Shown one piece after another: positions 2 to 61,963 of a stretch of 64,000 bases of DNA. The stretch is from assembly GCA_963565915.1 (NCBI GenBank), contig OY751491.1, positions 4,092,001 through 4,156,000 of the forward strand, in the 5' to 3' direction. The position numbers and the translations under genes were made by a program. The notes below the pieces were generated by a model that saw nothing but the letters and a program-made list of their open reading frames with translations, was not told the DNA's origin and searched no databases. The first letter of the stretch is position 1. Every line of letters starts with the position of its first letter. The stretch comes from Entoloma clypeatum (Eukaryota > Basidiomycota > Agaricomycetes > Agaricales > Entolomataceae).

Positions 2-599
2 ATTCTGGTCATTGTAGACCGCCTCACTAAACAAGGCATCTTCATCCCTACCACCATTAATTGCACATCCGAAGACCTAGCAAACCTTTTCGTGCTTCAC
101 ATCTTTTCCAAGCACGGAGTTCCACAAAATGTCACATCTGATCGCAGACCTGAATCCCACCCAAAAGTTATCCGACAACTATGCTGGCCCATTTGAAATC
201 ATAGCCCAACCCGGCACGCACTCCTTTACACTACGTCTACCCAGCACGCACTCCTTTACACTACGTCTACCCAACACTATGCGTGCTATACACCCCGTCT
301 TCCACATATCCATGCTCGAACCAGCAACTCCTAACGAGATTCCAAATCGGATACAATCTCCTCCACCTCCACTCGAGATTGAAGGAGAAACCGAATACGA
401 AATTGCAGAAATCGTCGACTCAAAGATCGATAAAAGACAACGATGCAAACTCCTTTACCTTGTCCGCTGGTTAGGTTATGAAGACACCAGTGAAGAGTTT
501 TCTTGGTTATCTGCATCCGAGCTTGAACACGCAGCGGATATGGTAGCGGACTTCCACTCTGCTCAACCAACTAAGCCAGGCCCCTTATCGTGCTTGTAA
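2..599 (+). pseudogene. Gyp-A integrase/chromodomain remnant (Ty3/gypsy pol 3' end)
   Basis: This is the 3' end of a chromovirus-type pol. The first ~125 bases encode the integrase core stretch around VDRLTKQGIFIPTT and HGVPQNVTSD. The reading frame then changes and jumps straight to the C-terminal motif KLSDNYAGPFEIIAQPGTHS, followed by HPVFHISMLEP (GPY/F-type module) and a chromodomain (EYEIAEIVDSKID...LYLVRWLGYEDT...FSWLSASELE). Compared with the copy at 21859-23361, the part of integrase holding the last catalytic residue and the linker is missing. The 5' end runs off the window. A 30-bp tandem duplication (214-273) adds ten residues in frame. A TAA stop at 597-599 ends the chromodomain as in the other copies. 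It cannot encode a working integrase. Confidence 0.9.
214..273. repeat. 30-bp exact tandem duplication inside pol
   Basis: Positions 214-243 and 244-273 are identical 30-mers beginning GCACGCACTCC. The duplication keeps the frame and repeats the peptide THSFTLRLP. The other Gyp-A copies here have a single unit at the same place. Confidence 0.95.
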
Positions 600-643: not shown

Positions 644-1608
644 CTACTTTCGCTGTTTTTTGTTAGATACCCCCTCTGTCTCCTCATTCCACTCCAATCC
701 GGATTCCGCACCCGCTTCCTCCATCCACCTTTGCTTCTTCATCTCTTCTTCATTTTCTTCTTCTTCTTCTACCTCCTTTCCCAACTCCTCCAATACCCTA
801 TCATACTCCTCCGCATCCTCGTCCTCGTCGGATCCCTGCTCCTCAGCCTCCGAATCCTCCCTCCATGCGATAACCATCAAAAGCTCCTTAATTTCCCGCA
901 GTTCCTTCAACTCCGCCTTTATCAGCCACATCTCCCTTATCATGCTCCTAAGCCCTCTCACCACCTCCGTGCCTATGACTACCTCCGGCGGACCAAACCC
1001 CTCCGGCATGAACTCTGGCTCCTCCAACGCTGCCGCTATCCGTGATCCCTCCGCGGTCCCCTCTCCCTTGGACGATCCCGCCTTCGCGTTCTTCATCACA
1101 CCACCTGCCACCTTAGCCTTTCCGACCCTCACTGCCTTGGTCATCCTCCGCTTCACCTCCGACTCTGCTTCCGCTCCCGTTCTGCAGCTTTGTTTTAAAC
1201 GCTGGCACTGCCAGCACAACAAAGCGTTGTCATTCCTAAAGAACAAGTTAATAATGAAGCGTATAAAGAAATAGAAAAGACTCACTCCGATGGCCAAAAA
1301 CACATGTCCCCCGCTTTCAAGCAGGAGGTGCAATCCTCCTTCCCCTGCTCGTAACTCGCAGGCATATCCTTGAAAACCCCCTGCAGCTGGACCTTCTTCA
1401 CCTCTGCATCTGCATCCGCACCCGCAACCGGTTCCTTCGCCTTCGCTTTCTCTGCCTTCCTCTCTGCTCGTCTCCGCTCTTTTGCCGCCCTTTTCGCCTC
1501 CGCGCGCTCCTCTGCCTCCTGCAGCTTCCTCTCCAACTCTTCAGTGACCTTCTTCTGGCGCTCCCTTTCAGCACAAAGAGCGGCGAGGGGTGAGTTCTCA
1601 GTGGACAT
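644..1608 (-). CDS. Antisense spliced gene of Gyp-A: coiled-coil Zn2Cys6-type protein (copy 1)
   Basis: The gene lies opposite to pol, between the pol stop and the LTR. The model has exon 1 at 1608-1286 (ATG at 1608), a 50-nt GTGAGT...TTTAG intron at 1285-1236, and exon 2 at 1235-644, giving about 304 aa. Residues ~15-70 are a Lys/Glu/Ala/Arg-rich predicted coiled coil. A cysteine cluster straddles the intron: CTSCLKAGDMC at the end of exon 1 and CWQCQRLKQSC at the start of exon 2. The spacing C-x2-C-x6-C-x11-C-x2-C-x6-C fits the fungal Gal4-type Zn2Cys6 consensus. The tail is strongly acidic and ends NKKQRK, possibly a nuclear localisation signal. A second copy sits in the same place in the element at 19.7-24.7 kb, which argues for a real element-borne gene. 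DNA or RNA binding is inferred, not shown. Confidence 0.72.
1236..1285 (-). other. Intron of the antisense gene, copy 1
   Basis: The 50-nt intron runs from GTGAGT (from 1285) to CTTTAG (ending at 1236). Removing it joins GA to G (Glu) and places the two cysteine half-clusters in one frame; unspliced, exon 1 hits a TGA at once. Size and borders are typical of basidiomycete introns. Confidence 0.75.
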
Positions 1609-1739: not shown

Positions 1740-2040
1740 TGTCATAACCATACGATTCACATCCGACTTATCCGACGACGCCGACGATTCATCCGCTCCA
1801 ACATCCGCTCCAACAACATTCTATTTATATTTGATTATACTTCTACTACGTAACATCTCAACCATACTTACAAGTAGACATATGTTGTTCACTTTTCATT
1901 TGCTACTCTCCGTACTCTGAATGTTCCGATGGTCAACTCCGATATCTGCACATCACTTATAGTAATGCTGATCATTCTAGTCTACTATAAATAGTGTACA
2001 AACCTGTCATAGAACCTCAGTTCAAATATCATATGTTACA
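1740..2040 (+). repeat. LTR-A1, 301 bp, shared between two Gyp-A bodies
   Basis: It starts TGTCATAACC and ends ATATGTTACA. A near-identical 301-bp copy is at 60228-60528 on the minus strand, which fixes both ends. A TATAAATA-like box lies near 1986. Upstream are the purine tract and pol end of one element; downstream are the leader and gag of another. The single LTR therefore serves both bodies. Confidence 0.85.
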
Positions 2041-2312
2041 CCTCATTCGCATCCATCTCTACTTGCTTTTGAGATTCTCTCCGTCACCTCCGCTCATCCG
2101 CTCATCCGACATCCGCCAATCTGAAATTGAGGACCACGTCAAAGAGTGGGGTGCAACACACAAGTTGAAGCCAAGTCTTTACCACTACGCCATTCACGTT
2201 CTCGACCTCCGACCCTCCGACGTGTCCAACATAGCTCCGATGTTTCGTCGTTCAGTTCTTAACAGTATATTCAAACTCCCACTCGCTCTTCTGTCTATTT
2301 CAAATTCTTAAT
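2041..2312 (+). other. Gyp-A leader (untranslated region before gag)
   Basis: This stretch lies between LTR and gag ATG. It is rich in CTCCGA/CATCCG motifs and contains GGTGCAACACACAAGTTGAAG, which is conserved in the minus-strand leaders at 59955-60227 and 61285-61683. I could not identify a convincing tRNA primer-binding site directly after the LTR. Confidence 0.6.
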
Positions 2313-19710: not shown

Positions 19711-20118
19711 GAATCGTGAACCCATCCGTACTACCGCTCTACTCAACGCTTCCGCTCTTTCTGATCCCAATTCCCTCCACGTCCGACTTACATCTCCGCT
19801 TATCTCCGATTCTTCTCTGATAGCCGTCCTTGTGGACTCCGGCTCTACTCATTGTTTTATTGACTCCCATTATGCTTCATCCTATAAACTCCCTTTCACC
19901 TCCATACCTCCGATCGAACTTAAATTATTTGACGGAACGTCCAACTCCATCATTACTCAGGCGGTTGATCTCCCTGTATACTTTTCCTCCAGTGAATATA
20001 TGGCCATTACAGCCTACGTGACTCCGCTCGATTCCTCCTGTTCTATGGTTCTTGGATACAACTGGCTCACCCGCTACAATCCTATGATTGACTGGGTATT
20101 ACTTTCCGTCCACAGCTC
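19711..20118 (+). pseudogene. Gyp-A protease, 5'-truncated and frameshifted
   Basis: Homology starts at about EPIRTTALLNASALSDPNSL; everything upstream (5' LTR, leader, gag) is missing and unrelated DNA lies to the left. The domain has VLVDSGSTHCFIDSHY (catalytic DSG) and [18 protein letters not shown]. Directly after this a 10-bp deletion relative to the copies at ~3945 and ~63118 (loss of GGGCAGTATC between short GTAT repeats) shifts the frame into the RT linker. Confidence 0.85.
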
Positions 20119-23100
20119 GTGAAGGAGTCTCCGACCTTGACGTCTTCTGCCAGGTCAGCTCCGCTACCTCCGCAGACCTCTCCCGATACTCCGACCTCCG
20201 ACTCCGGCACACCCGCTGCTACTCCGGACGTTGTCCCGAATATTGCATTGATAAATGCAGCCGCATTTGTGCGCGCTTGCAAACTTCTGGGTGCCCAATC
20301 CTTCCGAATTCACCTCTCCGACCACATGATCTCCGCCCAATCTGTTTCTATGTCCGAGGAGTCTCCGGACCTCTCCCATATCCCAGAGGAATATCACGAT
20401 TTTGCCGATGTTTTTAGCAAGACAAAAGCAGACACCCTCGCTCCACATCGTCCGTATGACCTCCGCATCGAGTTAGAAGACGGATCGACTCCCCCTATTG
20501 GCCCTATGTACTGCATTTCACAATCCGAACTATCTGCCCTGCGAAGCTTCATAGACGAACATTTGGCCATTGGTTTCATTCGCCCCTCTCGCTCTCCGCA
20601 CGGCGCTCCGGTCCTCTTTGTTCGAAAGAAGGACGGTTCCCTCCGCCTGTGCGTCGACTATCGGGGCCTGAACAAAGTTACCAAGAAGGATCGATACCCT
20701 CTTCCGCTCATCTCCGACCTCCTTTCCACTGCTGGAAAAGCGCGTGTTTATACCACTCTCGATCTCCGGCATGCATATCATCTTGTCTGCATTGCCGACG
20801 GAGATGAATGGAAAACCGCTTTCCGCACTCATTACGGATTGTTTGAATGGCTTGTTATGCCTTTTGGACTATCCAACGCCCCTGCTGCTTTTCAGCGATT
20901 TGTGAATGACATCTTCAGTGACCTCCTCGATGTTACAGTGGTGGTCTACCTCGACGACATTCTCATTTACTCCGATGACCCCGCCAAGCACCCCGACGAT
21001 GTCAAGAAAGTTCTCCGACGTCTCCGCAAGAACGGACTTTACGTCCGCTCCGACAAGTGCGAATTTTCTGTCGACACAGTCAAATATCTTGGTTTCATCC
21101 TTTCTCCCTCCGGTCTCCGCATGTCCGAAACCAAGGTGAAGACCATTCAAGAGTGGCCTGAACCTCAAAAAGTGAAGGACGTACAGTCTTTCCTTGGATT
21201 CGCGAATTTCTATCGACGTTTCATCCACGGTTATTCAGACATCGTTGTTCCGCTCACCCGACTCACCCAGAAGGGTACTCCGTTCCGTTTCTCCGACTCC
21301 GCACGGAGTGCGTTCAACGAGTTGAAGCTCGCTTTTACCAAGGCACCAGTCCTCACTCATTGGATTCCTGATCGACCTATTATCATCGAGACGGACGCCT
21401 CCGACTACGCACTTGGTGCTATTTTGTCCATCCAGACCTCCAACGAGGAGATACACCCAGTAGCGTTCCACTCCCGCACCTTCACCGCCCTGGAACTCAA
21501 CTACGACACGCACGACAAGGAGTTACTTGCTATCCATGAAGCATTCAAGGTATGGCGACATTACCTTGAAGGCTCCGCTGCTCCAATCGACGTTGTCACG
21601 GACCACAAGAACCTGGAGTACTTCACCACTACAAAGGTTCTCACCCGCCGACAGGCCTGGTGGTCCGAGTTCCTCTTTCAGTTCAATCTCTTGATTTGCT
21701 TCCGCCCTGGACGTCTTGGTACCAAACCGGACTCTTTGACTAGACGATGGGACGTCTATCCCAAAGAGGGGAATAGCGACTATGCGTCGGTAAATCCAAG
21801 CAACTTCTGACCAGTCTTTTCCCAAGAACAGCTGTCCGCATCTCTCCGAGCTACGGAGTTGTTCACCCCTGTTCTCTGCGCCACAGTCATAATGGACATT
21901 GAACAGTTGCACTCCGACATCCTCCGCTCACTCCTATCCGACCCAATCTATGCCGACCATCTCAAGGAGCCCAAACCACACTGGTCCGAAGACTCCGACG
22001 GTTTCCTCCGTCATAGTGGTCGCATTTATGTCCCCGACTCCGATAACCTCCGGCTCCGCATCCTCCGCAACAAGCACGACCATATTCTCTCCGGACACCC
22101 CGGACAGAACAAGACAGTTAGTCTCATTCAACAAGATTATACTTGGCCTGGTGTTCGAGACTTTGTCAAAAAGTACTGCAAATCCTGCACCACTTGTATG
22201 CGCTCTAAACCCCAACGCCACAAGCCCTATGGTATGCTGAAGCAGCTCCCAGTTCTGAACCTTCCGTGGAACTCCATATCCATGGACTTCATCGAGACAC
22301 TTCCAACCTCCGGCGGTTTTGACGCAATCCTTGTTATTGTTGACCGAATGACAAAACAAAGCATTTTTGTTCCGACTACGATCCACTGCACCTCCAAAGA
22401 TCTAGCCACCTTGTTCATCCTGCATGTGTTCTCCAAGCACGGAGTACCGGAGCATGTCACCTCCGACCAAGGCCCGGAGTTTGTCTCCCGCTTTTTCTGC
22501 TCCCTCGGAAAAGCCCTCAACGTGACTCTGCACTTCACCTCTGGCTACCATCCTGAAGGCGACGGTCAAACCGAACGTACCAACCAGACCTTGGAACAGT
22601 ACCTCCGCATTTTCTGTGACTATCAACAGGACAACTGGTCCGAACTACTTCCGCTTGCGGAGTTCGCGTACAACAATGCTCCGAGTGCTACGACCGGGAT
22701 CTCGCCCTTCTTCGCCAATAAAGGTTATCATCCGAACCTCTCCGTCCATCCGGAGCGCGACCTCGCATCCGCCCGTGCCCGACAATTCGTCGTAGACCTG
22801 GACGAGCTTCACCAAGAACTCAAATCTACAATCCTAGAAGCTCAACAACGTTATCAAGGCCCCGCCGATCTCCAGCATGCTCCGCCCCCTCCGCTCGAAG
22901 TAGGACAGCAAGCTTTTGTGAAGGCTAAGTTTTTCCGCACTACACGACCCTCCAAAAAGCTGTCTGAAAAGTACCTTGGCCCCTTTGACATCCTTGCCAG
23001 GAATGATACACACTCTTACACCCTCCGACTTCCGGACACCATACGCGGTGTTCACCCCGTTTTCCACATCTCCATGCTGGAGCCATCTGTTCCGAACGAC

Positions 23101-23361
23101 ATTCCGAACCAGACAGTAACTCCGCCTCCTCCGATCGACGTTGAAGGAGAAGTGGAATACGAAATCGCCGAAATCCTTGACACCAAACTGGATCGTCGGC
23201 GTTCTTGCAAACTGCTCTACCTAGTCCGTTGGCTAGGCTATGAAGGAACCGATGAGGAACAGTCCTGGCTACCTGCCACGGAACTCGAACACGCGACGGA
23301 CTTAGTCACAGACTTCCACTCCGCGTATCCAGAGAAACTGGGCCCCTTATCACACCTATAG
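20119..23361 (+). pseudogene. Gyp-A pol: RT, RNase H, integrase, chromodomain; one TGA
   Basis: One frame is interrupted only by TGA at 21808-21810. Domains in order: RT with [20 protein letters not shown] and the YLDD active site (codons 20947-20958); RNase H ([41 protein letters not shown]); integrase zinc finger (HDHILSGHPGQ...CKSCTTC); core with SMDFIETLP, VTSDQGPEFVSRF and HPEGDGQTERTNQTLEQYLR (D, D, E); GPY/F-like KYLGPFDILA; and chromodomain (EYEIAEILDTKLD...LYLVRWLGYEGTDEEQSWLP). The stop falls in the linker between RNase H and integrase, where CGA would restore the frame. It is the best-preserved Gyp-A pol here. The chromodomain suggests targeting to methylated-histone chromatin, as known for chromoviruses. 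Confidence 0.93.
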
Positions 23362-23413: not shown

Positions 23414-24252
23414 CTAGAGGGGGGAGGGGCTACTGGGTTTTGGCCTTTTTGGCCGGCGGACCCTCATCCTCCGACCCTTCCTCCAACTCCTCCATTTTTT
23501 CCCCTGTTTCTTCCTCCGCTTTCCTCGCCTGCTTTTTCTCCTCCTCCATTTTCTCCGCTCGCAGTTCTGCAAGCTCCCCCTCGTCCACGCCTCCAGCAAG
23601 AAGTTCCGGTAGGCGAGGTGGTTGTTTAAAATTTGCAGCTGCCGGAGCAGCGCCCAACCGACCCTCGCCGACCGCTCCTCTCTCTCCTCCAGAGCCTCCC
23701 GGAGCTCCCGGAGCTCCTCCGCGACCCCTGCGCCGCAGCATCTTTTCACCCCGCTCGGGCCCGCGACCTCCGCGACGGCCTCCTTTGTCTTCCCCCGTTT
23801 CCGCTTCGCCCTCGTCTCGCTGAGTTTCAGGCAAACCCGTTTGCCGTCTTTACACCGCTGGCATGCGGTGCCCTTCCCCTGCCTAAGGAGACTGTCAGTA
23901 AGAAAAAGAAGATGAAAAAAGCGGGTACTCACAATGCCCACTTGCACTCCACCTTCGCCTGCGCACAGGCCTGACACGCCTCCCCCCGGACCTCCGACTC
24001 CTCCGCCCTCTGCTTCCCCATTTTCGTTGTTTTCTTCCACTCCGCCTCCGCCTTTGCCTCCGCCTTTGCCTCCGCCTCTGCCTTCTTCTTCGCCTCTGCC
24101 TCCCTCGCCCTCCTCTCGGCCTCCGCCTTCTTCCTTGCCTCCGCCTCCTCCTTCTCCTTGCGTATCTGCGCCAGACGGCGCAGGAGCTCCTCTTCGGAGT
24201 TGTCTAGGTTGGTGCTGGATCGGGTGGGCTGTGTGCTCGAGCCTTGGGGCAT
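23414..24252 (-). CDS. Antisense spliced gene of Gyp-A: coiled-coil Zn2Cys6-type protein (copy 2, frame-disturbed)
   Basis: The position is the same as copy 1: opposite strand, 52 bases past the pol stop. Exon 1 is 24252-23933 (ATG at 24252, MPQGSSTQPTRSSTNLDNSE), followed by a Lys/Glu/Ala coiled coil and CQACAQAKVEC. The intron is 23932-23883 (GTGAGT...CCTTAG); a second acceptor (GACAG) nine bases upstream stays in frame. Exon 2 opens with KGTACQRCKDGKRVC. The pattern C-x2-C-x6-C-x10-C-x2-C-x6-C again fits Zn2Cys6. The acidic C-terminus ending PAKKAKTQ lies in a different frame from the first part of exon 2, so a frameshift near 23630 has probably disturbed it. The sequence has drifted far from copy 1 while keeping the cysteines and layout, which suggests past selection. 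Confidence 0.65.
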
Positions 24253-24357
24253 GTTGGTGGTAACTGGAAGAAACCCTTGAAGCCGCTCATCTCCGTTAAA
24301 TAACCGAGACCACATGACCTTGTTTATTTTCTTGCAGTCTTCCATGGGTGTCAGACC

Positions 24358-24371
24358 TAAGAGGGGAATAC
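24358..24371 (+). other. Polypurine tract of Gyp-A
   Basis: The run AAGAGGGGAATAC abuts the LTR start TGTTATATCC. It is near-identical to the tract at 1726. Confidence 0.7.
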
Positions 24372-24701
24372 TGTTATATCCGTCTCCGAATCTCCGATCC
24401 ACTCCGATCATCCTCCGACATTCTGGACATCCGTTACCTCCGCATCTCCGCACGTTGCCATCGTGCATTTCATATTCATAACTCCATGCCTTTATGCATT
24501 TCATATTCATATTCCCGTTTACTTGTGCATTGCCTTTTCCGCATGGTCCATTGACCGACATCTCTGATGTTCGTTACAGTCGCTGGCAACTTATGCCACA
24601 ACTCCGGACCTACTCCGACCATCTCCGTAAAGTAATATCATTTAGGTATTTAAGCTTGTACCATACCTGTAGTTCCTGAGTTCGAATATCAACAAAGTTC
24701 A
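24372..24701 (+). repeat. LTR-A2 (3' LTR of Gyp-A)
   Basis: It starts TGTTATATCCGTCTCC. The end is either ...TATCAACA at 24694 or ...AAGTTCA at 24701. The related minus-strand copy at 61684-61963 also continues AACAAAGTTCA, so the last seven bases may be the start of a leader. Cop-E begins at the next base. The LTR differs from LTR-A1 although the internal regions are related, so at least two Gyp-A subfamilies are present. Confidence 0.8.
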
Positions 24702-42527: not shown

Positions 42528-43752
42528 ATGATTCCGCGCTTTGGAGCAGCTTCGTCCGGGTCCGGGTCTGACTCTGATACATCTCCCACCCCTTCCAGTT
42601 CTTCTAATTACCTCTCCGTAACTGGTGATTCTGCTCTGTGCATAGTAATGGACGACCCCAATCGCCTTGAACAGCTTGAGCATGAGTTCCAGGAACAATG
42701 TCAAACTCTCGCCGATATCTCCACTCAACTTGACCAACTTCTTCTTGCTTTCAACGCAATACCCGCCCCCACTCCGCCACCTGTCCTACCTGCTCCCGCA
42801 CCTGCTATTATACCCGCTCTGTTCGCTCCGGCCAATCCGGGCATGCGTTGAGCAAAACCCGCCAATCCATCAGACTTCGATGGATCACGCGCAAATGGCT
42901 GGACCTTTCTAAACTCCTGTGAATTTTTTATGGGACTGTTTTATAAAGAGTGGACATGCAGCACGCTTCGCGGATCGCATTATCCAACAGGAGTGGAGGA
43001 CTGGTGCTCTGTCTTATTGGACTTAGGTGGACTTTCGCGCAGTCTTCACAGCGGAGTTCACTCTGGAGAATGAGGAAAAGGACATGAGGCTGATCCTCGA
43101 AGGAGAATCCTATTATCAAGGTCAATGGGATGTCGAGACCTATATTGACAAGTTCAAAGACTACATTGACAAAGCGGGCTATCAGGAGGATACCAACATT
43201 GTACTCAAATTCCACCATGGTCTCCGTTCCGACATTCAGAACAAGATTGCCACCCTGACCCACGGACGGCCTGCAGATGACAACCCCGATGAGTGGTACT
43301 CTGCAGCACGAGTCAATGACAACAATAGGATTGCCAACAAAGCCTTTAAAGCCACTGCTCTGACCTGCACATCCACCTTCCGCAACGTTGTTGGACCAAG
43401 AGTACCTGGCACCTCAGTATTCCCTCGCCCCTACATTCCATTCACTTTGCATACAGCTCCGCTTGCATCCGCATCCGCTCTGCCAACAAGGGACCCTAAT
43501 GCAATGGACATTGATACTTCACGCATCAAAGGCAAGAATGCCAATGCATGCTTCAGATGTAACAAAACGGGCCACTTTAGTCATGAATGCCCCCTTCGCT
43601 TCGATGTTCGCTTCATGACAATGGAGGAGCAGGACAAGTTTGTTATGGAACAACTCATGGTCAAGGATGCAGTGGAAGACAACTCCGTTCCGCCCACGGA
43701 GTCTGCGGAGTCAGAGGGAGGACAGGAGGATTTTCCTCCCCACAATGAGTGA
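42528..43752 (+). pseudogene. Gyp-C gag, broken
   Basis: ATG 42528 opens a Ser/Pro-rich N-terminus and a short coiled-coil part (RLEQLEHEFQEQCQTLADIS). TGA at 42849 interrupts it before AKPANPSDFDGSRANG. A frameshift follows near 42940 and TAG occurs at 43024. The capsid part continues in frame (DFRAVFTAEFTLENEEKDMR, VLKFHHGLRSDIQNKI, NPDEWYSAARVND) to a CCHC knuckle CFRCNKTGHFSHEC and a tail ending at TGA 43750. The order is standard for Ty3/gypsy Gag. Confidence 0.88.
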
Positions 43753-43786
43753 ACAGTGCGCCCTCATTGTCTGCTAAACCTTATTT

Positions 43787-45629
43787 ATGAAACAATATAA
43801 TCCTATACCCTCCATCTCTAAGCCTGCAAATGATCCTATAGTCGCACCCAACTCCGCAAACCCTATCCGCATCCGCCTCTCTAAGTGGGAGCGTCGGCTT
43901 CCGAAACAATATGTTCTCGCTGCATCTGCTCGCTCCGACAATTCCCTTGAACTAGACATAGTTCTTGAAACTACCGACACTAAAGACATACTATCACAAA
44001 AGGCCTTACTCAACAGCGGGACAACAGGGTCGTTTATTGAACGTACTCTGGTTGAGAAACACTGACTCTCTACTCAAAAACTACAATGCACAATTCCGGT
44101 ATACAATATCGGCAGAACTCCGAATGAGGCCAGAGCAATAACGGAGGTGTTGGATGTAGTGCTCCGCTATCGGGATCACACAGAGTGGACCCAGCTTGCA
44201 GTCACAAGTTTGGGAAAACAAGAAATTGTGTTAGGCTTCACTTGGCTCAAAGAACACAACCACGAGGTAGATTGGACATCAGGGGAAGTGAAGATGAGCC
44301 GGTGTCCTGCACGATGTCGGACATGCCACCAGGAGGCAGCCCAAGAGTGGAAGGAGCGGAAGTTTGAACAAGTCCGCATCCGAGCCTGTCGGATGGGTTC
44401 CACTCCGACATCCAGTCTAGTGGAGGAGGCTCTGCGTGGCCCATGGGTGGAGGATGTCACAGAAGGAGAGGAAGCGGAGGAGTTAGCAGAAGACAATGAG
44501 GAAGAGGATGAGTTTGAGGAGGGAGATTGCCTTTTTGTCAGAACAGTACCCGCGGAGGCGGAGTTCATCCATGCTTCATCCAATATCTCGCAACGTCTAT
44601 TGGAGGCCTTCCTCAGTAACCAAAAACCTAAATCTTTCCGTGACTCTGTACCAGACCACTTGTTTGACTTTGAAGACATATTCTCAAAGACCTCTTTTGA
44701 CACCTTACCAGAAGAGCGGACTTGGGACCACGCCATTGAACTTGTTCTGGCCTCCCCAGTGGGTTGTAAGATATATCCGCTCACTCTGAACAAACAGAAG
44801 GAACTCGACGCATTTTTGGAGGAAAACCTTGCAACTGGTCGAATCTGCCCTTCCAAGTCTCCGATGGCATCTCTGGTATTTTACATCAAGAAGAAGGATG
44901 GCTCCCTTCGTCTTGTACAAGACTACCAGTCACTCAACTCCAAAACTATCAAAAACAAGTATCCGCTTCCGCTCATATCCGAACTGATCAATAAACTTCA
45001 ACGCGCTCAATACTTCACCAAGCTCAACATCTGCTGGGGCTACAACAATGTGCGGATAAAACCTGGAGACAAGTGGAAGGCCGCTTTTCGGACCAATCAT
45101 GGACTCTATGAACCATTGGTGATGTTCTTCGGCCTCACTAATAGTCCATCCACATTCCAGACTATGATGAACGAGATCTTTCAGGACCTTATCACTGAAG
45201 GTGTAGTCTGTGTTTACCTCGACGATATACTCATCTTCACGGAGACCCTTGCGGAGCATCAGAGAGTCACATGGATCATACTGGAACGACTTCGCGAACA
45301 CAAACTCTATCTAAAACCAGAGAAATGCAAGTTTGAACAAATGCACATTGAATACCTAGGCCTTATTATTGAACAAGGACATGTAGAGGTGGATCCGGTG
45401 AAGGTAGCGGGGGTCGCGGAGTGGCCTGCTCCGACAAACGTCCGAGAAGTACAGTCCTTTCTAGGATTCACTAACTTCTATCGCCGTTTTATTGAAGGGT
45501 TTTCAGACATCACACGCCCGCTTTTTGGGCTCACGAAGAAAGGGCACCTCTGGTCTTGGAAGGAGGGAGAAGTGTCCGCATTTGCGGAGTTGAAGCGGAG
45601 GATTGCATCCGCTCCGATCCTGGTCTTAG
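43787..45629 (+). pseudogene. Gyp-C protease and RT, first part of pol
   Basis: The protease reads KALLNSGTTGSFIERTL; the catalytic Asp of the expected DSG is Asn (AAC at 44012-44014). TGA at 44063 follows, then the frame continues with IVLGFTWLKEHNHEVDWTSG. RT shows [46 protein letters not shown] and YLDD (45215-45226), then FLGFTNFYRRFIEGFSDITR. The frame is cut after APILVL at 45629 by Gyp-B and resumes at 56949. TGA and Asp-to-Asn both fit C-to-T (or G-to-A) changes at CpG. Confidence 0.92.
45625..45629 (+). other. Target duplication CTTAG, left of Gyp-B
   Basis: CTTAG precedes the 5' LTR-B and is repeated at 56949-56953 right after the 3' LTR-B. Joining across it restores the Gyp-C frame (…ILVLADHGKKW). 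Confidence 0.93.
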
Positions 45630-46017
45630 TGTTACGGACTTACCGGTTTGTATGTTACGCACTTTTCCCTTGCATTGTACCTTCGTTATTTCTTTGACTC
45701 ATCGGACCGCTTATTCATTTATCTTTACTCTACCATTCTCCTTTAGTATACTTCGCTCCCGCGCTGACTCGCACTCCGCAGTAGGGATTACTCAGTCCGC
45801 AGTGGTCTGACTCACTTCGCACTGCCTTTCCGCAGTTACTGACTCATCTGCACTGCCTTCCGCAGCTACTGACTCACTCGCTACCGCTCATAGCCAGTAC
45901 TATATAAACCCCATGTACCATAGCTACATTCCTTATATTTAGCAATCACTTTGCTCTTCGCCTTTCCACTTCCTGCATACTCTGCCCGAACCTTGGAACG
46001 GTTTGTTAAGCATAACA
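45630..46017 (+). repeat. Gyp-B 5' LTR (388 bp)
   Basis: TGTTACGGACTTACC...TAAGCATAACA. The 3' partner at 56561-56948 differs at only about five positions by eye. TATATAAAC is at 45901. Four exact TGACTCA words lie upstream of it, plus near matches; TGACTCA is the Gcn4/AP-1-type bZIP site. Confidence 0.95.
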
Positions 46018-56948: not shown

Positions 56949-58927
56949 CTTAGCTGATCATGGAAAGAAGTGGCGGATAGAAGCAGATAGCTCGGACTTT
57001 GCAACCGGAGCAGTACTGTCCCAACCAACAGAGGACGGTAAGTGGCACCCTGTCGCATTCTATTCCAAAAGCCTTAGTCTGGTGGAACGCAACAACGAGA
57101 TTTATGATAAAGAGATGTTGGCAGTGGTCCGCGCATTGGAGGAGTGGAGGCACTTCCTTGAAGGAGCGGAGAAGACAGTGGAGATTTGGACGGACCACAA
57201 AAATCTTGAGTATTTCATGACAGCTCAAAAACTAAATCGACGACAGGCTAGATGGTCCTTATACCTCGCTCGTTTCGATTTCAAAATGCACCATCGACCT
57301 GGCAAGTCAATGGGCAAGTCCGACACTTTGTCCCGATGAGCGGACCACAGAGACGGATCGCGGGACAACGAAAACATCATCCTTCTTCGACCAGAATTGT
57401 TTGCAGTGCGAGCAATGCGGGGGGTAACTGTTCAAGGGGAAGAATGCGACGTCCTCCGCCAGGTCCAACAGGGAATCCAAGAGGGGTTACTGGAAGATAG
57501 TGTGGCGGAGGTTGTCAAATCCCTTCCGACTGTCGGAGCGGGGTCCATCCGCAGTGCGGAGTGGAGGCAAGTGGAAGGTTTGCTCTACTTCAGGGATTAT
57601 ATCTATGTTCCTAACAATCCCCAACTGCATCATCGGATCCTCACACAACACCACGACACTCCAGTGGCTGGACATCCTGGACGATGGAAAACCTTGGAAC
57701 TGGTGTCACGCAATTACTGGTGGCCACACATGTCTCGTTTAATAGGTCAATATTGCAAGACATGCAACCCATGCCTCCGCACCAAGGTCCGACACACTCC
57801 GCCCTCCAGAGAGCTCAATCCGCTACCAGTCCCCACGGAGCGATGGCAAGTAACCAGTGTTGACTTCATTACTGAACTACCACAAGCCCATGGCTACGAC
57901 GCTATCATGGTCATAGTGGACTCAGTAGGGAAGCGGGGACACTTCATCCCGACGCACTCCGATATCTCCGCACTCGGGACTGCACACTCCTATGTTCAAA
58001 ATGTCTGGAAACTCCATGGACTACCGGAGGCCATTGTCTCCGACCGAGGACCACAGTTTGTCGCCAAGTTCACACGCGAACTATACAGGCTGCTTAACAT
58101 TAAGGTTGCTGCCTCGACAGCCTACCATCCGCAGTCAGATGGACAGATGGAGCGGGTCAATCAAGGATTGGAACAATACCTTCGCCTATTCGTCAATGAA
58201 TGTCAAGACAATTGGGACGAATGGCTTCCGATGGCTGAATTTGCATACAACAACCATGTTCATGCATCGACACATCAAACTCCATTCTACATTGACACCG
58301 GCCGCCATCCGCGCATGGGATTCGAACCTCGCGAGAAGCGGACGGAGATTGAGGCGGTAGCGGATTTCAGCCAGTGGATGAAGTCCGCTCTAGAGGAGGC
58401 TCATGCAGCACTGACAAAGGCAAAAGATGACATGGCGCGATACTACAACCAGCATTGGAGCACCACTCTGATATTCCGCCTGGGGGACAAGGTCTTTTTA
58501 GACTCATCAGACCTCAAAACCACCTGACCCACAAAAAAACTTGCACATCGATATGTAGGCCCTTTCCCAGTGGTCCGACCTGTCAGAACACATGCCTATG
58601 AAATTCGCCTTCCCCCTTCCATGTCCCACGTTCACCCAGTATTCCATGTCGTCAAACTTTCACTAGTTCCCAACGACCCCTTCCGACACCAAGTCCGCTC
58701 TCCTCTGCCTCCAACGGTAGTCGCAGAAGAATTAGAGTACGATGTTGAAAACCTCTTGGACAGCTGACTGCATCGAGGCAAGCTTCAATTCTTGGTCAAA
58801 TGGAAGGGATATGGCTACGAAGAGAATTCCTGGGAAGCAGAAGACAACGTCCATGCTCCGCGCCTAGTCCGTGACTTCTACCGACATCATCCGGGAGCTC
58901 CGCGATATTCGACTTGTTTCGCCTGAC
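56949..58927 (+). pseudogene. Gyp-C pol, second part: RNase H, integrase, chromodomain
   Basis: It continues Gyp-C after the Gyp-B insertion: [62 protein letters not shown] at 57337 is followed in frame by the integrase linker, zinc finger (HHDTPVAGHPG...CKTCNPC), core (SVDFITELP, VSDRGPQFVAKF, HPQSDGQMERVNQGLEQYLR) and GDKVFLDSSDLKTT. TGA at 58525 precedes KKLAHRYVGPFPVVR; TGA at 58765 precedes the chromodomain (KLQFLVKWKGYGYEENSWEA). All three stops are at sites where CGA would restore the reading frame. The catalytic residues themselves are intact. Confidence 0.93.
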
Positions 58928-58947
58928 ATGTCGAGACACTGTGCCTT

Positions 58948-58958
58948 GAAGGGGGGGT
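58948..58958 (+). other. Gyp-C polypurine tract
   Basis: GAAGGGGGGG lies two to three bases before the LTR start TGTAAGGGC. Confidence 0.7.
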
Positions 58959-58960
58959 GA

Positions 58961-59393
58961 TGTAAGGGCAACCACTTTCACTTTTCACTTTTCCTTTCCT
59001 TTCTTCCTTTCCTTTCTATTCCACCATCTCCGACGTCCTCCGATCGTATCCGCTGTCTCTGACATCTTATCCACCTCTCCGCATCCAACGACTCCGCCCC
59101 CATCTGCTACTCCGCACGTCGGATCACAGGTACTATCATTCATCTTGTTTCCATTCATTTTTTATCGCTACTCCCGATCATTGCTCATCATTCATGCGTC
59201 TCGTTTTATCTCTTATTTCATATCTCATTTTACTATTTATCTCGCTAGCTTGCAGGGGAATCCTTAGAACTTTCTCTTCGGATCTCCCTTGCAAGGTGTG
59301 TGTTGTATTACTCATCAGACTGCTCAATCTAAACTTCGGATCTCCCTTGCAAGTATCTGAGTTTGAGTCTTGGATCGTAAGGTCGCCCTTACA
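58961..59393 (+). repeat. Gyp-C 3' LTR (433 bp)
   Basis: TGTAAGGGCAACC...GTCGCCCTTACA; the outer nine bases form a perfect inverted repeat. CCTTTCCTTTCTTCC runs lie near the 5' end. The 5' partner is truncated (42201-42480). Confidence 0.92.
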
Positions 59394-59954: not shown

Positions 59955-60227
59955 CAGGAGGATCTTCTCCCTCCGATGCTGTCACGTAGCGCTTTTCTCA
60001 ACATCGGACAAGTCGGAGCGGAGTAGCAGAGGAGCGGATGCGATAAGTGCGACGTTGGCAGAAAGGACCTGGCTTCAACTTGTGCATTGCGCCCCACTCT
60101 TTGACGTGGTCCTCGATTTTGGATTTGCGGATGTCGGATGAGCAGATGAGCAGATGAGCAGATGAGCAGATGAGCAGAGGTGATGGAGAGAATGCTCAAA
60201 AGCAAGTAGAGACGGATGCGAATGAGG
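59955..60227 (-). other. Gyp-A leader, minus strand, truncated
   Basis: It matches the leader at 2041-2312 in reverse (GCGCAATGCACAAGTTGAAG). It contains five 8-bp GATGAGCA units (60137-60176 on the plus strand) where the other copy has about two. Gag is absent. Confidence 0.75.
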
Positions 60228-60528
60228 TGTAACATATGATATTTGAACTGAGGTTCTACGACAGGTTTGTACACTATTTATAGTAGACTAGAATGATCAG
60301 CATTACTATAAGTGATGTGCAGATATCGGAGTTGACCATCAGAACATTCGGAGTACGGAGAGTAGCAAATGAAAAGTGAACAACATATGTCTACTTGTAA
60401 GTATGGTTGAGATGTTACGTAGTAGAAGTATAATCAAATATAAATAGAATGTTGTTGGAGCGGATGTCAGAGCGGATGAATCGTCAGAGTCGTTGGATAA
60501 GTCGGATGTGCATCATATGGTTATGACA
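60228..60528 (-). repeat. LTR-A1, minus-strand copy (301 bp)
   Basis: Near-identical in reverse to 1740-2040 (TGTCATAACCATATGATGC on the minus strand). The leader follows; the body is missing. Confidence 0.92.
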
Positions 60529-61140
60529 TGTAGGGCATTGGGAGTGAGAGGAGGGCGTTGTGGGCGAGAGGTGTCTGTTGGTGGCGAGAGGCAGCCATTG
60601 GGCACATGTGGAAGCCGTTGGTGGTGAGAGGAGGGCATTGGGCATGTGTGGGGGCCATTGTGCATGTGAGTGGGTGCGAGAGAAGGGCGTTGGGGGATGT
60701 GGCCATTGGGCGCGAGTGGTGAGCATTGACAAAAGGTGGCCGTTGGCGGCAATAGATGGCCCTTGGGCGACTCTGGGGGCCCTTGGGCTTGGGAGGAGGC
60801 CGGTGGGGGTGAGTAGTGGCCGTTCAGCATGAGTTGGGTGAGACTGGGGGCGTTGGGGGTGAGAGGTGTCCATTGGGGCCGTAGATGGCCATTGGACAGT
60901 GGTGGGCACAAGACATGGCCATTGGGAGCAGCAGACGGCTGTTGGATGGTTGGGCAAGAGCTGGTGTTGGGCACCAGGTGTGGCGTTGGCCAAGAGTCGT
61001 GAGGCAGTGCCGCGTCAGAGCATGACATGTGATGGGTACTGCCATGGGTCCAGGTTGCAAAATCACAACCCGTACCCATAGATGTGGATACCTGTACCCA
61101 TGACTCCACACAGGTTACCCGTACCCATGCTATTGCCTAC
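60529..61140. repeat. Foldback relic: G-rich minisatellite and ACCCGTACCC words
   Basis: Degenerate units such as GGGCATTGGGAGTGAGAGG and GGCCGTTGGCGGC run to about 60985, resembling the right arm at 40490-40870. ACCCGTACCC words follow at 61065-61130, as in the centre of the foldback at 39310. Confidence 0.6.
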
Positions 61141-61284
61141 AAACCAGATATCTTTTATGGATCCAATCCACACAAACTCTCTGCATTCATTTTACCATGC
61201 AAAGTCTACTTCTCCAATAATGACAACTTCCAGTCAGAACATTCTAAAGTCAACTTTGCTATGTCCTACTTCTGAGGCACAGCA

Positions 61285-61683
61285 CTTGAATTCTGTTAAG
61301 TAGGTGAAACGTCGGAGCTTCGTTGGAGTCTGTCAGAGGTCGGACGTAGGACTGAGACCGGAGCGGAACTCCGGAAATGCGGAGGAACGACAAAGGGGAG
61401 GGACATGGCTTCAATGTATGTGTTGCGCCGCCGTTTGTTGGATAAGGTGTCCCAATTTCAGGAGGTCGGAGGAGAGGTCGGAGGTGCGGAGGTCCTCGGA
61501 GAGATCTCAGTGAGAGACATGTTGACGTGGAAGTGGTCGGACGATGTCGGAGTTGTGACTCGGACACAGTACTGAGCTCGTTGAAGGGTAACGATGGAGG
61601 AAGAGCAGTAGATGAGGATGTCATCGGCGTATTGTACCACAGCGAGGATCTCTGGCATGAACGGGGAGTAGAGGAGTGAACTT
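61285..61683 (-). other. Gyp-A leader, minus strand, with a YADD-encoding stretch
   Basis: On the minus strand, after the LTR, a ~100-base stretch can be read PEILAVVQYADDILIYCSSS. Then comes the conserved leader with GGCGCAACACATACATTGAAG, ending at TTAACAG. Homology stops at ~61285 before gag. Confidence 0.6.
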
Positions 61684-61963
61684 TGTTAATATTTGAACTG
61701 AGGAACTACAGGTATGGTACGAGCTTAAATATCTAAATGTGATTACTTTACGGAGATGGTCGGAGTAGGTCCGGAGTTGTGGCATAAGTTGCCAGCGACT
61801 GTATTGAACATCGGAGATGTCGGTCAATGGACCATGTGGAAAAGGCGATGCATAAGTAAACGGGAATATGAATATGAAATGCATGATGGCAACGTGCGGA
61901 GATGTGGAGGTAACGGATGTCCGGAATATCGGAATTGATCGGAATTGATCGGAGATGATCAGA
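61684..61963 (-). repeat. LTR-A2, minus-strand copy, 5'-truncated
   Basis: It matches 24372-24694 in reverse (GTACCATACCTGTAGTTCCT, TCGCTGGCAACTTATGCC). The outer TGTTATATCC end is missing. It abuts a plus-strand gag fragment at ~61964. Confidence 0.85.

Follow-up and report, generated by a model that had tools for sequence, protein, structure and literature searches.

We analysed a 64-kb window of the Entoloma clypeatum genome (assembly GCA_963565915.1, contig OY751491.1, positions 4,092,001 to 4,156,000) that contains a spliced gene running against pol inside a Ty3/gypsy chromovirus. Three families of this element carry the antisense gene and are termed fam1, fam2 and fam3. The fam1 gene is read on the minus strand from 1608 to 644, between the pol stop (599) and the start of the 3' long terminal repeat (LTR; 1740), where the initial annotation had placed it. 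The features of this copy are given below together with counts of the word TCCG, which on the antisense strand is CGGA.

1286..1608, minus strand: antisense exon 1, with ATG at 1608; charged K/E/A/R helix and first cysteine half
1236..1285, minus strand: antisense intron, 50 nt, GT-AG (GTGAGT...TTTAG), phase 2
644..1235, minus strand: antisense exon 2 including the stop; second cysteine half, linker, heptad-like helix, acidic stretch and basic end
81..599, plus strand: damaged pol end with chromodomain-like tail, convergent with the antisense gene; TCCG z 0.5, no enrichment
1740..2180, plus strand: 3' LTR, segment common to other copies; 12 TCCG, 0 CGGA

The 304-aa product forms a Gal4-like C-x2-C-x6-C-x11-C-x2-C-x6-C pattern (C2C6C11C2C6C) across the splice, with the intron separating the halves CTSCLKAGDMC and CWQCQRLKQSC, as had been read from the sequence initially. 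By eye, the order is a charged K/E/A/R helix, C-x2-C-x6-C, the splice, C-x2-C-x6-C, a linker, a heptad-like helix, an acidic stretch and a KKQRK basic end. The acidic tail with its basic end had also been described initially. The proposed K/E/A coiled coil of exon 1 looks, by eye, more like a charged helix, and a heptad-like helix lies after the zinc cluster.

The fam1 LTR in the window may extend to 2264 (then holding 15 TCCG), and beyond 2180 this copy diverges from the others. The LTR end at CTTAACA matches 2 of 40 fam1 loci, and multi-copy counts therefore use the 441-bp shared segment. A repeat search of window positions 1-30000 found no LTR pair. Within 1740-2624, a gag-like frame (ATG 2313) follows directly after the LTR in the same direction, as if one LTR were common to two elements. 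The damaged pol end carries a 30-bp tandem duplication (209-277); the adjoining antisense gene is otherwise intact.

Three families share the antisense gene

The second family lies further along the window.

23933..24252, minus strand: fam2 antisense exon 1
23883..23932, minus strand: fam2 antisense intron, phase 2; 50 nt here, 49-55 nt in seven other copies
23430..23882, minus strand: fam2 antisense exon 2, broken in the window copy by a ~85-bp deletion at 23587/23588
20092..23361, plus strand: fam2 pol in two open reading frames; 76 TCCG, where 43.8 are expected when protein and codon usage are fixed
24372..24701, plus strand: fam2 3' LTR, 330 bp; 12 TCCG, 1 CGGA

The initial annotation had proposed a second copy of the same layout here. 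Its position, strand, phase-2 intron (23932-23883) and cysteines were confirmed; the spacing is x10 (C2C6C10C2C6C) rather than x11, and the window copy is frame-shifted. All seven other fetched fam2 copies contain the ~85 bp at 23587/23588 and are intact (7/8 fetched copies in total, the window copy being the broken one). The end previously assigned at 23414 comes from the frame-shifted read, as the stop in relatives is equivalent to 23430. Modelling of 11 further loci (L049-L059) yielded seven two-exon models, each with a phase-2 intron, fam2 spacing and the complete set of cysteines, and none at the other four. Upstream of the ATG chosen for fam2 the antisense reading frame continues into the LTR, both in the window (24252-24573, minus strand) and at L051, L055-L057 and L059, so the actual start may be further upstream.

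The third family is represented by a complete element at C1:612332-619443 (loci L060 and L062; L060 is its 3' end) with 490-bp LTRs and a 5-bp duplication, GGAAT. Its LTRs are 99.6% identical over 491 aligned bp, and the element is a recent insertion. Its antisense gene (C1:617826-618787) encodes C2C6C8C2C6C, with a phase-2 intron between Cys3 and Cys4. Identity to fam1 is 34% for fam2 and 37% for fam3; the six cysteines are invariant across the three families, which also agree in the position, strand and intron site of the gene.

The frame is maintained across copies

Forty fam1 places were scored out of 148 candidates, the gene region being present in all 40 by construction of the search. 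The ATG and the intron GT are kept in 40/40, the AG and the 50-nt intron length in 39/40, and the gene is intact throughout in 25/40. The cysteine pattern was matched in 36 of the 40, four of these with a stop inside it. Exon-by-exon protein searches of the genome returned 132 (fam1), 151 (fam2) and 188 (fam3) matches, which count exons rather than elements and are lower bounds. The frame is thus conserved in most copies (25/40 fam1, 7/8 fam2) and in a third family, a point on which the initial annotation had made its own reading depend and which also characterizes the plant aORF-3R class discussed below.

Distinct fam1 indels are multiples of three in 18/23 cases in coding exons versus 6/26 in intron, flanks and LTR (Fisher P 1.7e-4). 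For pooled copies, the ratio of nonsynonymous to synonymous substitution rates (dN/dS) came to 0.37 in fam1 (25 intact copies) and 0.32 in fam2 (12 copies, comprising the seven intact ones and five of the seven models among L049-L059, with L050 and L052 left out). It changes little without near-identical copies (0.38, n=14; 0.33, n=9). Other frames gave 0.66-1.22 (forward), 0.49 and 0.41 (reverse, sharing wobble positions) and 0.80-1.40 (remaining reverse). Neutral simulations (60 per setting) returned 0.46-0.55 with CpG decay and 0.81-0.84 without it, rather than 1, and this CpG-aware baseline weakened dN/dS as chief proof. Net dN/dS between two fam2 subgroups (L059 left out) is 0.40, not below the within-subgroup values of 0.23 and 0.28. 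Full-length fam3 matches in a single frame, considered as possible intron-less copies, have in-frame stops and lengths fitting a read-through intron, as judged from search matches only. We regard the antisense gene as almost certainly real and protein-coding.

Domain identity and relatives

Members of Zn_clus (PF00172) have the spacing C-x2-C-x6-C-x5..12-C-x2-C-x6..8-C, and the products of fam1 (x11), fam2 (x10) and fam3 (x8) all fall within it. A profile built from the three families reached two proteins of Pilatotrama ljubarskyi (Polyporales; E 2.2e-5 and 3.5e-3), annotated as hypothetical proteins and arranged alike: charged helix, C2C6C11C2C6C, basic stretch, heptad-like helix and acidic end. 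They score 18.4 and 18.6 bits with Zn_clus, below the Pfam gathering cut-off of 21 bits. These relatives were reached only with the three-family alignment; protein database searches with the fam1 whole protein and the fam2 zinc region gave no match (in one search, among the best 7994 candidates scored), nor did a PDB sequence search with fam2. A third profile hit, P0003 (E 0.95), was dropped as a charged-helix match.

The element proteins resemble fungal Zn2Cys6 factors such as Gal4 and Pho7 in the spacing of the six cysteines, by eye in the linker and helix that follow the cluster, and in the CGG words of their presumed targets. They differ in scoring below the Pfam cut-off, in placing the cluster mid-protein after a charged helix, and in being encoded antisense inside a retrotransposon.

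Directional TCCG arrays in the elements

CGG triplets, arranged as inverted, direct or everted pairs, are the typical targets of Zn2Cys6 factors, and fission-yeast Pho7 reads TCG(G/C)(A/T)..., with two direct-repeat sites in one promoter (PMC5559640). In the elements, the LTRs of fam1 to fam3 (LTR1, 1740-2264; LTR2; LTR3) hold 15, 12 and 22 TCCG against 2.4, 2.2 and 4.0 in dinucleotide shuffles, and 0, 1 and 0 CGGA (fam2 copies average 2.3 CGGA). In a scan of all 4-mers, TCCG ranked top in LTR1 (441-bp segment, z 9.1) and LTR2 (z 7.4). It was also the top 4-mer of fam2 pol with protein and codon usage held (z 7.4), all three codon positions being involved, and pol pieces of fam1 (L015; 31 versus 15.6) and fam3 (17 versus 9.1) are enriched as well. 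No TCCG enrichment was seen in copia1, copia2, gypsyA or gypsyC of the window. Genome-wide, triple clusters number 19,176 for TCCG versus 2,070 for the reversed word, counted over all sequence whether in elements or not.

The bases around the word depend on the family. TCCG is preceded by A in 57% of cases in 38 fam1 LTR copies and by C in 66% in nine fam2 copies, a difference that is not significant with one LTR per family (P 0.08). The fam3 LTR reads TCCGA in 22/22 cases (TCGGA on the antisense strand) and the fam3 pol piece in 10/17; with one LTR per family, the following base separates fam3 from fam1 or fam2 at P 1.5e-4. Among fam1 LTR copies, 0.6% of bases at the T and first C of TCCG differ from the majority, compared with 1.9% at other non-CpG pyrimidines (P 0.0075). 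The CpG within TCCG decays as fast as other CpGs: in the fam1 LTR copies among L001-L040, departures from the majority are about fivefold more frequent at CpG than at other sites, both inside and outside the word, pointing to methylation-type decay of old copies. Elsewhere in the window, 60005-61953 holds four clusters in the reverse orientation (CGGA), the first adjoining reversed sequence like the fam1-type LTR.

One gypsy lineage has such arrays and lacks the gene. It lies at window 43027-45697 and 57340-59360, with at least 105 genome matches, many with 1356-aa open frames, and no antisense zinc gene is present at its window loci. Six loci, L063 (from the window) to L068, were scanned over 1500 nt downstream of the integrase piece; a lone cysteine half turned up and no paired halves. 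An exclusive link between TCCG and the antisense gene is thereby ruled out; the word is shared more widely, which points to freeloading by this lineage or to recognition by a host factor.

A candidate self-encoded regulator

We propose that the antisense gene is the third gene of this chromovirus lineage, probably expressed from the 3' LTR side as a spliced transcript. Its product would be a dimeric protein of the nucleus, with a Gal4-like Zn2Cys6 cluster whose two halves are encoded on either side of the intron, most likely binding one-direction CGGA sites on the LTRs and body of its own element, and binding may switch on, time or de-silence its own family. The antisense intron would survive each round because the sense genomic RNA, in which it presumably stays unspliced, does not remove it. 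For this whole chain, in which the element encodes a CGG-binding nuclear factor that acts back on it, we see an even chance. The earlier suggestion that the gene might regulate the LTR has gained support from the CGGA arrays in the LTRs, which had not entered the initial annotation; binding itself is a prediction.

A precedent is VANC of the Arabidopsis VANDAL elements, with dense same-orientation motifs on its own transposon (PMC5735166; see also PMC10398659). Likened by motifs only, the two systems agree in dense one-orientation words on the own element (TCCG 15/12/22 against CGGA 0/1/0). VANDAL is a DNA transposon with mainly non-coding motifs according to that source, whereas TCCG here also lies in pol, and the gene-less lineage shows that the word is not confined to families served by the protein. 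A fuller VANC-like self-recognition in fungal chromoviruses is a tentative idea, possible rather than probable: an antisense spliced Zn2Cys6 protein would co-evolve with one-direction CGGA sites that selection has spread across LTRs as well as coding sequence, coating and activating or de-silencing mainly its own family, with the gene-less lineage freeloading.

Several observations weigh against these proposals. In Pfam searches, the three whole proteins gave no Zn_clus match, cut-out pieces stayed below the cut-off (16.3 for fam1, 12.5 for fam3), and the fam2 piece had none, its best weak match being ADD_DNMT3. The dN/dS deficit relative to the CpG-aware simulation is moderate (1.7-2.4 standard deviations in fam1, 3.0-3.9 in fam2). 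Over the cysteine region, on which the initial annotation had also rested its case, dN/dS is tight in fam2 (0.13) and not in fam1 (0.66). No intron-less copy was found: fam1 and fam2 splice-junction patterns, allowing up to three mismatches, matched nowhere in the genome, and the candidate L049 was rejected, still having the intron plus small deletions. Among short fam1-like pieces TCCG enrichment is mixed, two of them reaching z 3.3 and 3.0 and three others 1.3, 0.9 and 0.5, and the constraint on TCCG pyrimidines has a like ratio in fam2 with P 0.35. The gene-less lineage itself is enriched in pol (TCCG z 4.4, CGGA z 2.8) and integrase (z 2.8), and its LTR holds 6-10 TCCG against ~2 expected (P 0.002-0.014) with 2-3 CGGA (in 5/5 with a recognised LTR, six loci).

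Alternative explanations

The arrays in the gene-less lineage would also fit a Zn2Cys6 factor of the host acting through TCCG to drive several gypsy lineages, the antisense protein being real with another role such as nuclear import of the pre-integration complex, with which its basic C-terminal end may be compatible. However, the flanks are family-dependent, including the uniform TCCGA of fam3, the arrays are denser and more one-sided in gene-bearing families than in the gene-less lineage, and four other element groups in the window have none; we consider this explanation unlikely, if still a serious contender. The one-sidedness of TCCG on the sense strand, over LTR and pol, could alternatively mark a packaging or particle-assembly signal in the sense RNA unrelated to the antisense protein, which appears improbable given that the word is densest in the LTRs, including the start of U3, the place of promoters, and that directional DNA motifs are known for VANC too.

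Retrotransposon antisense transcripts can act via double-stranded RNA (PMC7264820), and with the gene converging on the pol end its RNA could be the working product, damping or tuning the sense transcript with the protein secondary. An RNA alone needs neither frame-preserving indels nor cysteines and splice sites kept across families, and we judge this quite improbable. That the frame arose by chance in purine-rich sequence is barely credible: exon 1 is low-complexity, the dN/dS deficit is moderate and the opposite-strand wobble-sharing frame reaches 0.41-0.49, but among 13 C-x2-C-x6-C halves in six frames of 64 kb only two tandem pairs lie 45-160 nt apart, both of them these fam1 and fam2 genes, and the three families, the indel test and the relatives in another species all argue against chance.

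Relation to known antisense genes

Plant gypsy elements carry antisense accessory open reading frames of the aORF-3R class (Grande gene23, RIRE2, Retand TRP28, PvRetro13; PMC7264820, PMC11963269), and the TRP28 domain is said to be probably DNA-binding (PMC11963269). The genes of fam1, fam2 and fam3 share their position, antisense between pol and the 3' LTR. In these sources, the plant genes are suspected to encode nuclear or DNA-binding proteins, as is proposed here; the two groups differ in that the available portions report no zinc cluster there, whereas the fungal chromovirus gene has an intron-split domain and matching motif arrays. Human T-lymphotropic virus 1 (HTLV-1) HBZ is likewise the product of a retroelement antisense gene in the 3' region and a nuclear regulator (PMC11963269; PMC7264820). 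The comparison is one of position and proposed role. HBZ is a bZIP protein, unlike the one proposed here.

Among fungi, Boty brtn of Botrytis (Zhao 2011, as mentioned in a review and listed in the references of PMC8365987) is an antisense extra gene between pol and the 3' LTR of a gypsy element; its host is an ascomycete, and it is compared here by that description. The initial annotation had cited antisense accessory frames from plant gypsy elements; antisense genes in fungal gypsy elements are published as well. Our literature search, most subscription papers being outside its reach, came upon no report of an antisense zinc-cluster gene in a fungal retrotransposon. Antisense accessory genes are known, brtn included; what looks new is that a zinc cluster is interrupted by a conserved antisense intron and coincides with CGGA arrays of the element.

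Some unnamed 'hypothetical proteins' of the same layout in mushroom genomes, the two Pilatotrama examples among them, may find their explanation here. Antisense accessory genes have long been known without a function. The present ones combine a recognisable type of DNA-binding domain with a candidate target word whose flanks depend on the family, which makes the question of function testable by one binding assay.
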